NCBI GenBank assembly: GCA_024276795.1
Contig: JAJRWK010000005.1
Location: 1 to 35,579 of the forward strand
Source: an archaeon
GTDB taxonomy: Archaea; Asgardarchaeota; Heimdallarchaeia; Heimdallarchaeales; JAJRWK01
Length of the DNA: 35,579 nt
Direction: 5' to 3'
The position numbers and the translations under genes are program-made. Below the pieces are notes generated by a model. It was not told where the DNA came from. It worked only from the letters and a program-made list of their open reading frames with translations, and ran no database searches. Shown one piece after another: positions 27,504 to 35,579 of this stretch. The number at the start of each line of letters is the position of its first letter. The first letter of the stretch is position 1.

Positions 27504-27623
27504 AGATAACGCCTTGACTCCCCAAGTGGTTTTTTTCATTTTTCTTTAATCACGGGTTCTTTGATTAATATTCGCTTTTTCCAGAAAACTAGTTGCAAGC
27601 AAAACAAACATAGACAAGAAGAA

Positions 27624-30536
27624 ATGAGGGGGATATGGAGGACTCTGTGGATGATCGTTCCAAATCTTTTTCTTACAGTGACTTCACATGCCGGAATCTC
27701 AATAGCACAAATTGGTAGCTTGGCACTGGGTGTTAGCACAAATATTGAAGATCTACTTGGTAGCTCATTATCTGCATTAAAAGACATTATTGGAACCGAA
27801 GCATCACAGACAGAAGCCAGAGTCCTTGCTGGCACCACGGATCATAGTGCATTTGGAAATATCACCCTAAGAATTGATGCAGAGGCAAGCATTTCTGTAA
27901 CCTATGTTCTTACCGTCCCTCCTGGTGAAGAATTACCCTTAGATATGATTCCGTTTGTTGATGAATTTGCAAGGGCATTTGGGTATCAGTTGTTGCAAAT
28001 TAGTTTGCTCAAGAGATACGTAGAATCTGGGAAGCAACTTAGACATGACGCAATTGCATGGGCATTCATAAATGCCGCTCTTGTCGCCCATCTTAGCTCA
28101 AAGGAGCTCCCAACACTTGCCCAGGAATTAGAAATCAATCTTTCAAAGATTCTCCAAGAGATTCTCGACAAAAGCGAGAATCTTGCACCAATGACGGATC
28201 TGAAAGATCCACAATACCTACTAGCTCATGAGGAATATTGGGGAAACGAGTTCCTGACTCCTTCCTTCGTTTATTCTATTAGGCAACAATTGGTAGATGG
28301 AGCTTTGTGGAAAGCTGCTGATGAACATACTCTCCCGCTGTTATTGTATCGCAATCCCCGAGAGATTAAAGCTCATTTGGAAGCCGTGCTGAACAAGCTG
28401 TTAGAGAGACGATACAAGAATCCAGAGGATATCGTTATTGGTGAATTAAAAAACTTGATTGGAGAACTGGGGGCATCAGTGCTTCAGGATGTACCCCTTT
28501 CCTCAAGCCATAGCTACAAGAGTGTGATTCGTGAGCGAGCAATTAGGGCAGCAATTGCTCACGCAACAGCAAGATCACCACTACTAGTACTTCGCTACTT
28601 GAGGAGATCTAAGATTCTTCAAGCGTTTGACGAGCTTTATCGGGCGTACAAAATAGACGATATCTCGATTATTCTTAACCATGCGATTCAGAGCGAAGTT
28701 CCTGAGCGAGCACGGGTACCCATGCAGGCATTCATTTCCTCATTTGTTGAGGCGCTGGGAGAGCAACCTCTGTCAGAGGGGGGATGGATTGCTCTTCGCT
28801 CGTTTTTAACATCGTTGGGGGAAAGAATCGAAAATGTAATAGAAAACGCGTCCACTTATGCAAGCCAAATAGGAAGACCAGACTGGGCAAAAGAGATCCA
28901 GAGAAATTTGAGACAGAATCCCCAAGAAAAACTTCCTCTTGCGCAAGTAGAAGAAGCACAAGCGATTTGGAAGGCTATAGGAATTGCGAGTATGAATGCT
29001 CTTGCAACTCTGATAAGATCCGAATACTTGGGTAATCCGCCTACTGAACTTGGAAACGTTGTGAAGCAGATTATTCGAACATATCATGGTCATGCGCAAT
29101 ATATTCTTGCGACCTCGCTAGCATTGAAGATTATTCGTCCCCTAATCAAAATGGGAAACGACATAGATATGACGCTTCCTTCGGTTTCGACGCTTTTGCT
29201 ACTTGAAGCGCTGAAGAGCAATCAGCTCAGTTGGAAAACCACCAGAGTAAAGCAGAAGAGAAGATTTTTCTTTTTCAAGGACCCTTGGAAAGTCAAAATT
29301 GGAAAAGAGACAAAAGAGATATGGGAATTGCTTGACCAGGTAGATCAATTGTACCGGATCGAATCACAGGAAAAGATTACTCCAATAAAGGAACTTGAAC
29401 AAGATCCTTTGTCCCTCGTCAATGGTTTAGTAGATTTTGGTACATTGACTAAAGCGATTCAATTAACCTTCGTTTTTCATGTTAATCAGCAAATCATCGC
29501 TCCTTTGCTGAAAGTGATGAAGAAAAAGCAAACAAAAAGATCCCCAAAGGACGCCGCAACACTGCTTAGAATGGTATATTCGCCAAACAAGAATGGGAAA
29601 AATAATATTCTTACTCAATTTCTCAAGAAAGCTGAAAAAGCCGTCTCTCGATACATGGAGAAGTTAGAAGAAACGAGAAACAGAGGAGGGGACGAAAAGG
29701 TTGTTTTAGAAGAAGCAAGAATTGCCTTACTTGAAATTGCTCGGAAGAGCGCGTTCTCGCTAGGAAAGCAACTAAAATCTAATGCCAAACAGTTCGGGGG
29801 AATATTCGAAGTAAACCCCGAGGATTTTGTTCTGCGATTTCGTCGATCTACAAGTGGCATTCTGATGGATAAGAACGAACTCGCTAGGATCATTGCGGAG
29901 TTTGAAAAACGGAAAAACCCCACTCTTCTTTCAAATGACCTTCCGCATCTGTTACGGGCAACTTTTGCCAATGCACTATTAGAACCAGTTCCAGAGAGCA
30001 TAATTGCCGACGTTCTTCCAGTTCTTTCTAGACATGCAAGAACGGCGAATGGGAGAAAAGTGAGTAGATTATATGATCTGTTAGCAGAGATCAATCTTCG
30101 AATTAACGATTTGATTCTAGCAATTAGAGATTTGGTTAATGAGATTGAGAATCAACTGGTTGCGAACGATGCCCCAATTGCTGTTGAAAAATCTTCGGTG
30201 TTCGTTGAACTGTTCTCAGTAAAAACCAAAGATGTTCCAAACAGAAGCACTATTGAACGACTACTACCGTACGAAGAGATTGAGTTAGATAATTTCGCAG
30301 GAAAGTGGATCGGTCGCATCCGTCTTCTTAGACTTGAGCATTTCCGTTCAGAAGTCCCATTATTAGTAACTCTCTCCGATGTTGTTCGATATGATGTTTT
30401 GAGAGAAACCAGAGAACAAGTCAATATGGTTTATTCCGGCATCGGATTAGTTCTGAAATATTTAAGCAGAGAAGCCCCCAATGAGTTGAGCCAGATAAGG
30501 GAGAATCTTGAGAATGCCGTGTTCTTCCATGCATAA
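27624..30536 (+). CDS. Large helical protein of unknown function with possible N-terminal longin/roadblock-like domain (971 aa; 991 aa from TTG 27561)
   Basis: Single long ORF. N-terminal PNLFLTVTSHAGISIAQIG..IEDLLGSSLSALKDIIGTE..NITLRIDAEASISVTYVL..MIPFVDEFARAFG has longin-like alternation; the rest looks alpha-helical with no recognised family. Confidence 0.7.
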   Translation: MRGIWRTLWMIVPNLFLTVTSHAGISIAQIGSLALGVSTNIEDLLGSSLSALKDIIGTEASQTEARVLAGTTDHSAFGNITLRIDAEASISVTYVLTVPPGEELPLDMIPFVDEFARAFGYQLLQISLLKRYVESGKQLRHDAIAWAFINAALVAHLSSKELPTLAQELEINLSKILQEILDKSENLAPMTDLKDPQYLLAHEEYWGNEFLTPSFVYSIRQQLVDGALWKAADEHTLPLLLYRNPREIKAHLEAVLNKLLERRYKNPEDIVIGELKNLIGELGASVLQDVPLSSSHSYKSVIRERAIRAAIAHATARSPLLVLRYLRRSKILQAFDELYRAYKIDDISIILNHAIQSEVPERARVPMQAFISSFVEALGEQPLSEGGWIALRSFLTSLGERIENVIENASTYASQIGRPDWAKEIQRNLRQNPQEKLPLAQVEEAQAIWKAIGIASMNALATLIRSEYLGNPPTELGNVVKQIIRTYHGHAQYILATSLALKIIRPLIKMGNDIDMTLPSVSTLLLLEALKSNQLSWKTTRVKQKRRFFFFKDPWKVKIGKETKEIWELLDQVDQLYRIESQEKITPIKELEQDPLSLVNGLVDFGTLTKAIQLTFVFHVNQQIIAPLLKVMKKKQTKRSPKDAATLLRMVYSPNKNGKNNILTQFLKKAEKAVSRYMEKLEETRNRGGDEKVVLEEARIALLEIARKSAFSLGKQLKSNAKQFGGIFEVNPEDFVLRFRRSTSGILMDKNELARIIAEFEKRKNPTLLSNDLPHLLRATFANALLEPVPESIIADVLPVLSRHARTANGRKVSRLYDLLAEINLRINDLILAIRDLVNEIENQLVANDAPIAVEKSSVFVELFSVKTKDVPNRSTIERLLPYEEIELDNFAGKWIGRIRLLRLEHFRSEVPLLVTLSDVVRYDVLRETREQVNMVYSGIGLVLKYLSREAPNELSQIRENLENAVFFHA

Positions 30537-30551
30537 GACTATGCAGAACTG

Positions 30552-30570
30552 GGGTTTTCAAGAAGCCCCA
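30552..30570. terminator. Possible weak hairpin terminator between convergent genes
   Basis: GGGG-TTTTCAAGAAG-CCCC stem with TGGGG/CCCCA pairing in the 22 nt gap and 3' end of the kinase gene. Confidence 0.25.
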
Positions 30571-32936
30571 AGTGGTTTTCGAGGGAGGTTTATTGAAAAA
30601 ATCGCACCACCCTGTTTTGCGTTTCTCCAAGTAATTGTCCCTCCTAAGGACGAAATAACTCTTTTCGCCAAATATAGTCCGATTCCTGTTCCTTCTGTGG
30701 CGGGATCGAGTTTCTTAAATGGGTGAAACAACAGCTTTTCTGCACCAGGAGGCAGGCCCTTTCCGTTGTCTTGCACGGAAATGACAATCTTGGTTTTTAG
30801 CTTCCTAGCTTTGATTTTGATGGAAGGATTGTCTTGATTGGCGTATTTGATAGCGTTAGAAACGAGATTTTGTAGCCCTATTCGAAGTTTTACGGGGTCA
30901 GTATATAGCGCAATGGATGGAACCTCGATCTTGAACCAGCTCTCGGGCGCAGGAACTGAACGAAGAATCTGTTTTACGAGATCACGCAGATAGATTGTTT
31001 CGAAGGCTTGTTCGAAGTCCAGGGTGTTAGCAGTACGAGTCAGAATCTTGAAGAGGTTGCGAAGTTCTTGATAAGCGTCCTTTATTACAGCCAGATCCGC
31101 GATGGTTGCTTCATCATCTGCCATTTTAATTGCTTCATCGTAGAGAACTTGCAATAGTTGCTCCAGCTTGTCCATCGGGTCAGAAAACAGGATTTGAAGG
31201 TTTCTAGCTAAATTAGCTATGTGTTTTTCCGCATAGTATAACTGCCGGCTGTGAATTTGGAGAGCCTCGTTGACGGCTTGTAGTTCATTTTGAATGTTTA
31301 GTAATTGATTGACCATTGTTTCTCGAGGGGTTGGAGGGCGAATAAGAAGAAGGAAGTTCGTAGTTCTGTCTTCCGAGCCCCTTGCGATCCATGAAGAGGG
31401 CTGAGTCGTAGTGGGAGGATTTAAGCCGAGATGTTGTGCAAAGAGAATATAGGTTTGGCCCTCCTCATCGACTACTCTTGTTGATGAAATTCTTCCGGCA
31501 GCCAGAATTCTTGTGACGATATCAAGGGGTTCTTCAGAACCGCTTTCTTGGGGTTCTTCGATTGGTGTGAGAGAGAGTAAAAGATGGGTCAATGATGGAA
31601 TTCCATCGGTGTATTTTTGAAATAACTCTGCGGCTTTGTCATTGCTGTAAAGAGGTTGATCGATACCTATTGTTCCAATAATTATTGCTGTGTCGAGGAA
31701 ATCAATGGCTTTTTCAACGATGCTACGTTGTTTCTTGACAGCCAGATACTCCTGGTATGAGGAAGTAATGTCTCTAATTGAGAGAATTCCAGAAACAACC
31801 TCATTTTGCTTAATAATTGGCGTTCCAAGAATATGAACATAGCTACTAGTATCATCCTTATTGATGAGTTGATATGTTTCATTGACTGGTTCGCCGTTAA
31901 GAACCTTGGAGGTGGGGAGATTTTCAATTGGGATAGGTTCTCCTTGAGCAGAGAGTAAGAGTAAGGAGTAGAAGCGACCCAAGGGATTTCGAATGATTTT
32001 TGCGCGTTCCATGATTTTTTCTGCTCGGGGATTCAGAACGGGTTCTTTTCTTGGATCCTTTTCAATGATGATGATTCCATCGTCTAATTCTTGTAGAAGA
32101 GAATATAAAAGGCTTCTTTGATGAGTTGAGGAGAACCAGCTCGAAGCGCCTCTCGCAGAAATTCGGGGCTCGCCGGGTGATACTGTGATGATTGCGTTGC
32201 CAGTGTCTTTATCACGAAACAGAGTGATGGATAGAGACTTCCCCGTTCTCTTGAGACGCACGGGATATTCAGAAATCGAGTATTGTAGAGACGCTACTAG
32301 ATTTTGCAGACTGATAGGAGTTGAAGAAAACTCGGGTAGCAATACTTGTTCCAGAGGATTTCTGCCAAAAATTCTTACTGCAACAGAGTTTTGATAGGTT
32401 AGCTCTCCTTTATCGTTTACTAGAATAATGCCCATTGGGAGCAGATCGCATGCGAGGTATAGCCAATACTTGTTCTCTATGGGAGAGGGTAAGAACAGCT
32501 CTGAATCTTCTTTGAAGTAAAGCACATGAGAGAAAACGACTTCGAAAACTTCATGAATCTCACCACTGGGTAAATGTATGGGAAATCCGCTCAGATAGAT
32601 CTTAACGGGGCCACTGGATGACGAAATGATAACGGGGAAGTGCCGAAGTGAAACGTCCTCTTTCATAATTTTTGCATATAATGGTTGGTCTTGTGAGAGG
32701 AGGCCAAACCGAATTTCTGTCTTTCCATCGAAAGATTCCTTGACTATCGGGAGGTTAGAATAGATCACTCCTTGTTTTTCATTAATTCCAAAAAGCGCCA
32801 TGCGCTCGTGTTGAGTCATGAACGAGTTGAATAGCCCAGACAATGAAAGCGAGTCTTCATGAGCAGAGTATTCTAGCTCATCGGAGTGAAGGAATGCATT
32901 TACTTGTTTATTCGTGATTCTTGGTTCCATGGCCAA
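30558..32936 (-). CDS. Multi-PAS sensor histidine kinase with intact HATPase domain but no His at the H-box position (HK-B)
   Basis: N box LQNLVSNAIKYA, G1 DNGKGLPPG, F box LFHPFKK, G2 GTGIGLYLAK; DHp-like helix ANLARNLQILFSDPMDKLEQLLQVL; three PAS-like cores; no obvious TM. Confidence 0.85.
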   Translation of the reverse strand: MAMEPRITNKQVNAFLHSDELEYSAHEDSLSLSGLFNSFMTQHERMALFGINEKQGVIYSNLPIVKESFDGKTEIRFGLLSQDQPLYAKIMKEDVSLRHFPVIISSSSGPVKIYLSGFPIHLPSGEIHEVFEVVFSHVLYFKEDSELFLPSPIENKYWLYLACDLLPMGIILVNDKGELTYQNSVAVRIFGRNPLEQVLLPEFSSTPISLQNLVASLQYSISEYPVRLKRTGKSLSITLFRDKDTGNAIITVSPGEPRISARGASSWFSSTHQRSLLYSLLQELDDGIIIIEKDPRKEPVLNPRAEKIMERAKIIRNPLGRFYSLLLLSAQGEPIPIENLPTSKVLNGEPVNETYQLINKDDTSSYVHILGTPIIKQNEVVSGILSIRDITSSYQEYLAVKKQRSIVEKAIDFLDTAIIIGTIGIDQPLYSNDKAAELFQKYTDGIPSLTHLLLSLTPIEEPQESGSEEPLDIVTRILAAGRISSTRVVDEEGQTYILFAQHLGLNPPTTTQPSSWIARGSEDRTTNFLLLIRPPTPRETMVNQLLNIQNELQAVNEALQIHSRQLYYAEKHIANLARNLQILFSDPMDKLEQLLQVLYDEAIKMADDEATIADLAVIKDAYQELRNLFKILTRTANTLDFEQAFETIYLRDLVKQILRSVPAPESWFKIEVPSIALYTDPVKLRIGLQNLVSNAIKYANQDNPSIKIKARKLKTKIVISVQDNGKGLPPGAEKLLFHPFKKLDPATEGTGIGLYLAKRVISSLGGTITWRNAKQGGAIFSINLPRKPLGAS

Positions 32937-32950
32937 AACACCCCATCATT

Positions 32951-35224
32951 TTATTCTTTGCTAATCTGACGAATGTAGATTGTTATGGCATTTTCTTCTG
33001 ACAGCGAATGAACAACGTAGTTGGCTAGGAAGTAAATGGAAGGAGCTAGGGAAGTCATAGTTACTTGCTTCAAAGGAGAAATAACAGGTTGTTCGGGAGG
33101 GAGAGGTTTTGCTTTGTGGAGGAAAATGCGCAATATGTCATGGACACCGTGAATGTGAAGATCCCACTGTGAAGACGTATCATAAATGTTAGTCATCAAC
33201 ACCAATCGTAGGATTTCACGGACTCTTTCCGGATCATCCACCCATCTAGTTTTTCCATTGCTGTCAATATAGAGAAAAAGTGGTCTTAACTGAGGAGACT
33301 GAGCCACATCTTCCAAGATCTTGATAGCATCTATCTGCTCATTCGAAGAGGAGTGCAGGAATACGCGGCTTACGTATACAACTTCCTCTAGGGCTTCCAC
33401 GATTGCATGGGATAGTTCATTGATCTGGTTGGCGATGTCTTGAACAACGGGACTGATAGAGATGCTTTCTGCAATAAAGGTTGAAAACGTGGCCAGTGAT
33501 CGAAGAGGGGATTTTAGGTCATGACTGGCAGCCCGTAAGAACAATAGAGCGTCATTGTTGGTTTCCTCTAGTCGGCGAATTTGTTGCTCCAGTTCTTCGT
33601 TCTTGGCTTCAAGTATTCTAGAAGTCTGCATAAGGGTTTGCTGAAGGCTTTCTTCCCTTTCAAGATCTGTTAAAGAGAGAAGGAAAACATCATCGCCGAG
33701 GTTAGTCATCTGGGCAAAGTAAACGCTACTATTGAAAGAGACTTCTTTTTTTTGCATTCCTTGGACAGAGTTCAGAGTTTCGCGGATGAGTTCTTTAGCA
33801 ATTGAGGAGTTGGGAGGGAGGAGAAAGTCCTTGAGCATCTTGAACTTTTTGTTCCCCAATAATAGCGAACCATCTTGCCTGAGAAGACCAATAGCGTTGG
33901 GTAAGAGATTAAGAATGTGGCTCCAGAAATCAAGAACTTCTTGTTGTTGTTCGCTCAGACCGTTTTGAGAAGATTGAGATATGATCGCGTAGGCTCCTAT
34001 GGGGTTTCCTTTTTCGTCATTGATTATCTTAGGCGTGATTACAAATTCGTTTTCCCCATTGTTTTTCTCTTGAATTGGAACATGTTGGATGGAAGGATTG
34101 CGAATCTTATTTTGAACGATTTGGAGAATCATTTCCATTACGGGTTCTTCGTGTGTTTCGACAATTTCCAAGTTATGGGGATAGGCGAGAGAAAGTGAAT
34201 ATTCTGACTTGTTTAAACCGAAAAGGGATCGGAGGGGTCTGGAGGGATAGGCCTTTCCCCGCTCAAAATCAAGTAATAAGACACCGGTTTGAGTGTTATT
34301 AAGAACTTGGTAAAGAATAGAGTCAAAAATTGTCTCTGAAGACCGGGCAGAAGAACTATCTACTTCAAACAATAGGAGAATATATCCCAGAGGAAAGAGT
34401 TGCCTTGTCAAAATAGGAGCTACGTGCAACTCTAAGGCCCGGAAGGGATCTTCTCGAATTATTTTTTGAAAACGGACATTTATGGTTGGCATGTACGGCG
34501 ACATATAGCCGAATTCACTGAGAAATGCAGAAAGAGAATATCTCTCATTTATTCCAATGTAAATCAGTTGTTTCTTAGCAGCTTCATTGATGAATTCCAG
34601 ATTTCCGCTTGGATCAGCCCAAATTACTCCAATCTTGATTTGATCAAGTACATGAGACAAATCAGCCTCTTGTTTTGCACCAGTATAGCTTTCTTTTGAA
34701 AGATTTACTGCAAATATTAGTTCTGCCCATTGATGGAAATATGAAGGTTGGATCGATTCATAATGGATGAACAGAGTGTCATTATTGACATCAAGCTTCG
34801 TGGTTGGAATTATTGAAGATTCAGGGGTAGCATGTGGCAAGAATAAAATTGCTTCACTTTCATTGATGTTTCCGATGAAGAAGGAAGAAGCAAGGGCTTC
34901 ACTAGTTAGTTTACAAAATCGATCATTTAATGCAATAGGAACTAGTTTGCCCTCGATATTAATTGAGAAGCCCTGAACAAAATTGTCGAAGACAGATTCA
35001 AAGCGTTGAATGTTTAATATCGTTTCCGCATCAATCTGCTTACTAACATCAACAGGTTTGATTGCGACAAGAACTTCGTCCTCTTGGAGACCATTTTCCT
35101 TATAAATAGCGATTTTTGCAAGATGAGGGTGCGGTTTTGTAAGCAGAATTACTGAGAAGGACGGGTATGATTTCGAATACATGGCTTTGCAAGTGCAACA
35201 ATTGACTGAGGAGAACCGGTGCAA
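32951..35224 (-). CDS. Multi-PAS histidine kinase-like protein with intact H-box but degenerate ATPase domain (HK-A)
   Basis: H-box FLRAASHDLKSPLRSLATF (His codon 33521-33523); CA region lacks N, G1 and G2 motifs (HKAKPLPPE in place of DNGKGLPPx; SLAPSI in place of GTGIGL); three PAS-like cores. Confidence 0.85.
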   Translation of the reverse strand: MHRFSSVNCCTCKAMYSKSYPSFSVILLTKPHPHLAKIAIYKENGLQEDEVLVAIKPVDVSKQIDAETILNIQRFESVFDNFVQGFSINIEGKLVPIALNDRFCKLTSEALASSFFIGNINESEAILFLPHATPESSIIPTTKLDVNNDTLFIHYESIQPSYFHQWAELIFAVNLSKESYTGAKQEADLSHVLDQIKIGVIWADPSGNLEFINEAAKKQLIYIGINERYSLSAFLSEFGYMSPYMPTINVRFQKIIREDPFRALELHVAPILTRQLFPLGYILLLFEVDSSSARSSETIFDSILYQVLNNTQTGVLLLDFERGKAYPSRPLRSLFGLNKSEYSLSLAYPHNLEIVETHEEPVMEMILQIVQNKIRNPSIQHVPIQEKNNGENEFVITPKIINDEKGNPIGAYAIISQSSQNGLSEQQQEVLDFWSHILNLLPNAIGLLRQDGSLLLGNKKFKMLKDFLLPPNSSIAKELIRETLNSVQGMQKKEVSFNSSVYFAQMTNLGDDVFLLSLTDLEREESLQQTLMQTSRILEAKNEELEQQIRRLEETNNDALLFLRAASHDLKSPLRSLATFSTFIAESISISPVVQDIANQINELSHAIVEALEEVVYVSRVFLHSSSNEQIDAIKILEDVAQSPQLRPLFLYIDSNGKTRWVDDPERVREILRLVLMTNIYDTSSQWDLHIHGVHDILRIFLHKAKPLPPEQPVISPLKQVTMTSLAPSIYFLANYVVHSLSEENAITIYIRQISKE

Positions 35225-35324
35225 AGAGAGTATATGGAGTACATATGTGGATAGTAGTGATCCTTACTATGAGAGCGTAAGATGTTCCCATTTTTTTTCA
35301 CATGGTAAAGAGTAATGGGATATC

Positions 35325-35579
35325 TTGTCGTTTTTTGACTTTTCACTCAGTTACACCGCTAGAGTTATTCCCTCTAAGTTTGATATTGCCGTGATTATAC
35401 TAAATCATTTCTGGTTTTTTCTTAAGAGGAGTGCTATTTCACCGAATTATGCTGTGCAGATGTTTTTCTCTTTGTTTTATAACGAAACAGTCTTACCCCA
35501 ACTTTTATCCAGGTTTTCTGACGGAGTGGTCAATTGTTTGGGCAATGCCTATTGGAGATCAGAAGATAGACAAATGCTA
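35325..35579 (+). CDS. Possible partial ORF running off the window end
   Basis: After TAA 35313-35315 the frame is open to the end: (TTG) SFFDFSLSYTARVIPSKFDIAVIILNHFWFFLKRSAISPNYAVQMFFSLFYNETVLPQLLSRFSDGVVNCLGNAYWRSEDRQML. No family recognised. Confidence 0.3.
   Translation, partial: MSFFDFSLSYTARVIPSKFDIAVIILNHFWFFLKRSAISPNYAVQMFFSLFYNETVLPQLLSRFSDGVVNCLGNAYWRSEDRQML

Follow-up and report, generated by a model that had tools for sequence, protein, structure and literature searches.

Two adjacent genes with complementary kinase halves form a candidate split histidine kinase in a Heimdallarchaeia genome

Background

Histidine kinases are normally symmetric dimers of identical chains. A division of the kinase between two proteins has been described for CheA3 and CheA4 of Rhodobacter sphaeroides, neither of which autophosphorylates alone, while a mixture of the two phosphorylates CheA3 (PMC3591291); this source confirms the mechanism that the initial annotation of the present locus had cited as its precedent. 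EnvZ stays active with its HisKA and HATPase domains on separate chains, and HisKA-type split kinases have been predicted from domain counts, in which 1.7% of the HisKA proteins have no HATPase and carry the phosphatase motif (PMC3591291). In Synechocystis PCC 6803, Hik36 and Hik43 interact with one response regulator (PMC7656254). The characterised split kinases in the searched open-licence literature are CheA-type, from which the HisKA-type pair HK-A/HK-B described here differs, and no HisKA-type split kinase with complementary halves pinned down was found in that literature. The words "split" and "degenerate" are absent from a survey of Asgard kinases (PMC10343646), and the searched literature gave nothing useful on the Myxococcus Red kinases as a precedent.

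Results and discussion

The two genes and their limits

Of the archaeal groups, Asgard archaea are considered nearest to eukaryotes. The window, which is the whole stretch of 35,579 nucleotides that was analysed, is one contig (35.6 kb) from a draft genome of 2.7 Mb (G000, a Heimdallarchaeia MAG). HK-A and then HK-B are two minus-strand genes at its right end. Both open frames were recovered on that strand, HK-A at 32951-35224 (757 aa) and HK-B at 30558-32936 (792 aa). HK-A consists of a PAS-like sensor region, a HisKA-like helix hairpin with His568, and a C-terminus that lacks ATPase motifs. HK-B has a PAS-like sensor region, a His-less hairpin and an intact CA domain.

The start of HK-A had been placed at 35224, which is wrong. 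Positions 35155-35340 encode, in another frame, positions 3-63 of the protein from a sister species (51 bits), and the upstream coding part therefore points to a one-base frameshift in this MAG, with the true start about 41 residues further upstream, near 35346. The gene thus extends over 32951-35346 on the minus strand. The segment 35155-35346 (minus strand) makes up the N-terminal ~60 residues, in a frame differing from that of the remainder. Compared with the sister species one base is deleted, and this deletion, which only a single draft MAG shows, may be a real mutation or a sequencing error. HK-B probably starts at the ATG at 32930, which is conserved in the sister species, and the gap between the genes would then be about 20 nt, not the 14 nt first given.

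HK-A carries the phospho-acceptor half

HK-A has an H-box, ASHDLKSPLRSL, in which His568 is encoded by CAT at 33521-33523. The DHp/HisKA hairpin (residues 555-625; 33350-33562, minus strand) is recognised from a sub-threshold Pfam HisKA match (E 7e-4 to 0.011; 21.9 bits in the genome search), from its conservation, and from its score of 39.7 bits against a profile built on 10 H-box kinases of Asgard archaea, where the best of 1000 shuffles reached 11.0. The H-box had been read as intact, and the His indeed falls in the His column of a 24-row alignment, made independently of the earlier one, in which HK-A and HK-B are set against 20 Asgard kinases.

No HATPase family matches HK-A (Pfam, E<=10). 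Its C-terminus, residues 640-757 (32954-33307, minus strand), is a candidate degenerate, shortened CA domain. In the alignment Thr678 (33191-33193) occupies the column of the N-box Asn, HKAKPLPP stands at the G1 box (starting with His703, 33116-33118) where relatives read DNGxGIPP-like motifs, and SLAPS stands at the glycine-rich G2 loop (Ser725-Pro728, 33041-33052), so the degeneracies noted earlier at all three boxes are seen again. As read from the sequence, the ATP-binding motifs are certainly absent. To read this segment further as a CA domain that has decayed is plausible from where it lies and from the DPERVREIL of its N-box helix, and has weak statistical support: the similarity to the CA domain of HK-B or its ortholog is equalled by 6-48 of 5000 shuffles and by 3-17 of 518 unrelated segments (p about 0.001-0.01 from the shuffles), and against Asgard kinase profiles the segment scores no better than shuffles. 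AlphaFold2, given only two sequences, returned mean pLDDT values of 47.7 and 36.8 for the two C-terminal halves; since it failed even on the clear CA domain of HK-B, the low score of HK-A is uninformative.

HK-B carries the ATPase half

The CA domain of HK-B (30576-30929, minus strand) matches Pfam HATPase_c with E 2e-22 and, as first described, has all its motifs: N-box NLVSNAIKYA, G1 DNGKGLPP, F-box FHPFKKL and G2 GTGIGL. It is of the HisKA-associated type, with an F-box, and its closest solved structures are KdpD and HK853.

Upstream of it lies a DHp-like hairpin (residues 560-640; 31017-31259, minus strand) that is identified by alignment, by spacing and by full-length models. Ile582 (ATC, 31191-31193) occupies the His column and Pro587 is kept, which agrees with the original assignment of Ile in place of His. 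The distance from Pro587 to the N-box Asn is 107 residues, close to the 108-115 in the aligned kinases that have the Pro, which argues that the assignment of Ile582 is no accident of alignment. The proposed equal spacing to the Arg of the second helix also holds, at 52 steps in both proteins (568 to 620 in HK-A, 582 to 634 in HK-B), with HK-B offset by 3 at this Arg in the MAFFT alignment. HisKA-type models do not match HK-B (Pfam, E<=10), and full-length models of VanS and LvrA align across the hairpin (540-785 and 569-786).

HK-B could instead be a whole kinase, autophosphorylated at an atypical His (His572 or His562), with HK-A as an accessory. Both residues are conserved in the sister species, but they precede the H-box column by 10 and 20 residues and have no Pro at +5. 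HisKA-type models do not match HK-B, and its CA domain is of the type that goes with HisKA. On its sequence, HK-B is unlikely to be phosphorylated at a different His, for example His572, and this reading as a whole is very improbable.

Complementarity and the other kinases of the genome

The defects of the two proteins are reciprocal, as had been proposed from their motifs: in the domain profiles HisKA is found in HK-A only and HATPase_c in HK-B only. The two proteins also divide the PnpS model NF046044 (390 positions) between them, with model positions 46-257 matching HK-A 423-643 and 200-390 matching HK-B 605-785. Neither is a complete HisKA-type kinase with an acceptor His and HATPase_c on one chain, and the phospho-acceptor and the ATPase of a split kinase are present on two separate chains. 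No CheA-family domains (Hpt/P1, P2, H-kinase_dim, CheW-like) are found by Pfam in HK-A or HK-B, although the real CheA of this genome does carry them. The best reading, somewhat more likely than not, takes HK-A and HK-B as the two parts of a single split (bipartite) histidine kinase of the HisKA type, with His568 of HK-A phosphorylated by HK-B. Full-length HK-A and HK-B have no significant similarity to each other, and an origin by recent tandem duplication is therefore unsupported.

Exactly two proteins each of G000 and its sister genome G001 contain HisKA, namely HK-A and the intact HK-C, and kinase-type HATPase_c is seen only in HK-C, HK-B and CheA, in draft genomes that are 87-88% complete, so that further kinases could be missing from this census. 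Alternatively, HK-A may be an acceptor or phosphatase for another kinase, chiefly HK-C (or CheA), modulating the HK-C pathway, with HK-B as a separate ATP-binding regulator. All three genomes of the genus (G000, G001 and G002) have an intact HK-C, whose H-box (HDLRTPLRAI) is of the same type as that of HK-A, and HisKA-only proteins of archaea form a known class with a suggested phosphatase role (PMC5847659). This would leave unexplained the adjacent CA-only partner, the strict co-occurrence of the two genes and the same selection on both; the T/N of the phosphatase motif is missing in HK-A, and G002 has HK-C without HK-A. A role of HK-A under HK-C is considered unlikely.

Sensor regions

The initial annotation counted three PAS-like cores in each protein. 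In HK-B, Pfam finds one PAS domain above the cut-off (PAS_9, residues 286-391, 31764-32081, minus strand; 29.7 bits, cut-off 27, and 32.6 bits in the sister species) and a second PAS-like core just below it (PAS_8, residues 164-193, 32358-32447, minus strand; 20.3 bits, cut-off 21.8). In HK-A the matches are weak only, such as the PAS-like core at residues 189-217 (34574-34660, minus strand; PAS_8, 20.6 bits, below the cut-off of 21.8). The six PAS inputs that had been proposed are thus unsupported as counted by Pfam. The absence of a clear transmembrane segment was upheld, since the 19-residue maxima of 1.57 (HK-A) and 1.31 (HK-B) lie under the transmembrane level.

Conservation, selection and distribution

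G000 and its sister genome G001 (Candidatus Heimdallarchaeota archaeon isolate S139_metabat2_scaf2bin.022) are placed in one genus. G001 carries both genes, adjacent, in the same order and about 20 nt apart, with HK-A 84% and HK-B 83% identical, and every degenerate position of both proteins is identical there. Both anatomies are fixed in the two species. By the Nei-Gojobori method, dS between G000 and G001 (incalculable in some segments) is near or beyond saturation at 3.35 for HK-A and 1.81 for HK-B. The HK-A hairpin is 95.8% identical to that of the sister species (dN 0.025). The HK-A C-terminus (dN 0.049, 91% identical) is more conserved than the intact CA domain of HK-B (86%), and residues 575-592 of HK-B, in the His-less helix, have no amino-acid change (100% identical). 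Since these segments, the H-box helix among them, are nearly unchanged with dS near or beyond saturation, they are under purifying selection and not decay.

Ordinary decay of two paralogous kinases would account for the frameshift near the N-terminus of HK-A, which may itself be a sequencing error in this one draft MAG. Decay is contradicted by dN/dS far below 1 and by the same defects in two species at saturated dS; dN/dS rules out recent decay, and decay in general is barely credible. Another reading takes the pair as a regulatory complex of pseudokinases without mutual phosphotransfer, with the CA domain of HK-B as a sensor of ATP or of a partner and with docking at the HK-A hairpin. Parallels are the kinase repurposed for the control of cell fate in Caulobacter and the pseudokinase version of ChrS (PMC4211667 and PMC9491836), but in HK-B all ATP-binding motifs, and in HK-A the H-box, are intact and conserved, which a purely structural role would not call for. 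This reading is rather unlikely.

Both genes are present in 2 of 228 Asgard genomes and only one of them in 0 of 228; the 226 other genomes have no ortholog of HK-A or HK-B, and a scan of genome contigs found the pair in the sister species only. No homolog of either gene with both halves intact was found. Intact homologs and a lack of co-occurrence had been named beforehand as observations that would speak against a split kinase, and neither was seen; G001, the one further genome with either gene, conserves the pair and both degenerations. Since the sister species keeps the pair with both defects, HK-A and HK-B probably work only together. Tentatively, and with somewhat less assurance than the split itself, the pair may be a genus-restricted, obligately heterodimeric HisKA split kinase that arose from two full-length PAS kinases each losing the opposite half and that acts as a two-input device.

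The congener G002 lacks the pair, yet keeps the 991-aa neighbor of HK-B and the malic enzyme that neighbors HK-A in G001. The G002 copies of these flanking genes lie on different contigs and have different neighbors, so the absence of the pair is unlikely to be an assembly gap. The 991-aa protein (window 27561-30536, plus strand) has no Pfam match, is 87% conserved in G001 and 46% in G002, and has more distant homologs in all three genomes. Malic enzyme paralogs lie divergently beside both kinase loci, next to HK-A in G001 and, with one gene between, next to HK-C in G000 and G001 (loci L039:6736-8166, L102:2022-3431, L103:6390-7790 and L120:6607-7083). A further case is genome G024, with a PAS-like protein encoded after a malic enzyme. 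These neighborhoods, without counterpart in the other relatives checked, could reflect duplication of a block or tie the sensors to C4 metabolism. G002 also has bacterial-looking OmpR- and NtrC-type kinases and regulators (contigs C11, C112, C359, C56 and C110) that are absent from G000 and G001, possibly by contamination of the bin.

Response regulators

Of the window genes that were scanned with Pfam, none encodes a receiver. G000 as a whole has ten receiver matches, among them an Rcp-type single-domain receiver (G000:C13:41356-41757) that is present in both pair-bearing genomes and whose best solved match is RcpA. By its type it is a candidate partner, and it may belong to HK-C. It was rejected as specific to the pair, as a 69% identical copy occurs in G002, which lacks the pair, and comparison of the pair-bearing genomes with G002 yielded no response regulator dedicated to the pair. 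A protein of 456-459 aa (L069:1429-2805, L071:532-1899) has an N-terminal receiver and a long C-terminus without a significant Pfam match, which by eye resembles Asgard longin/roadblock proteins. A chemotaxis cluster (L101:1350-6094) encodes CheA, CheY and a CheB-like protein, together with genes that by eye are CheC- and CheD-like.

A possible mechanism

As a split kinase, the pair would work as follows. HK-B would bind ATP in its intact CA domain and, since Ile replaces His in its own hairpin, would transfer the gamma-phosphate to HK-A at His568. HK-A, which has no working ATPase, would be the phospho-acceptor and then the donor to a response regulator encoded elsewhere. Contact would most likely be made through the DHp-like hairpins, in a heterodimeric four-helix bundle, and such a heterodimer would work only if the hairpin geometry lets the CA domain of HK-B reach the His of HK-A (trans arrangement). 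With its own cytoplasmic PAS-type sensor region in each protein, the output would need both, so that the two inputs may act as an "AND gate".

The presence of the pair in two species only, the HDLKS in place of HE/DxxN/T and the failure to find a dedicated regulator are points against a split kinase. HK-A reads HDLKS, with Ser at +4, which departs from the phosphatase motif HE/DxxN/T, and without the T/N of this motif it falls outside the bifunctional type of split kinase, for which bistability was predicted (PMC3591291).

Comparison with known systems

The halves are adjacent, both defects are under selection, and only one other HisKA kinase is present in the genome. If the proposal is true, a homodimeric sensor has been turned into a two-input device, and this device would join the small number in Asgard archaea whose signalling function can be predicted.

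HK-A fits the archaeal class of "HisKA, no HATPase" proteins, with its HisKA and PAS matches sub-threshold. In the available part of PMC5847659 these proteins, from Archaeoglobi and Methanomicrobia, have PAS-type sensors and a HisKA-like domain with His; no complementary partner is described for them there, whereas that of HK-A is the adjacent gene. As in the pseudo-histidine kinases of Caulobacter and ChrS, an acceptor or catalytic function is lost and the fold probably kept, but those, as far as the accessible parts of the sources describe them, are single degenerate proteins acting on other pathways. Hik36 and Hik43 also have the HPt- and CA-bearing halves on separate proteins (PMC7656254); unlike HK-A/HK-B, they are a CheA homolog (PilL-N/PilL-C) in two genes at distant loci and are not of the HisKA type. 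In CheA3/CheA4, too, the phospho-accepting His is on one protein and the ATPase on the other (PMC3591291). That pair is CheA-type, with the His on a separate P1 domain, no P3 and P4 in CheA3, and a role in chemotaxis, whereas HK-A and HK-B are archaeal soluble proteins of the PAS-HisKA type whose domains are probably degenerate rather than missing.
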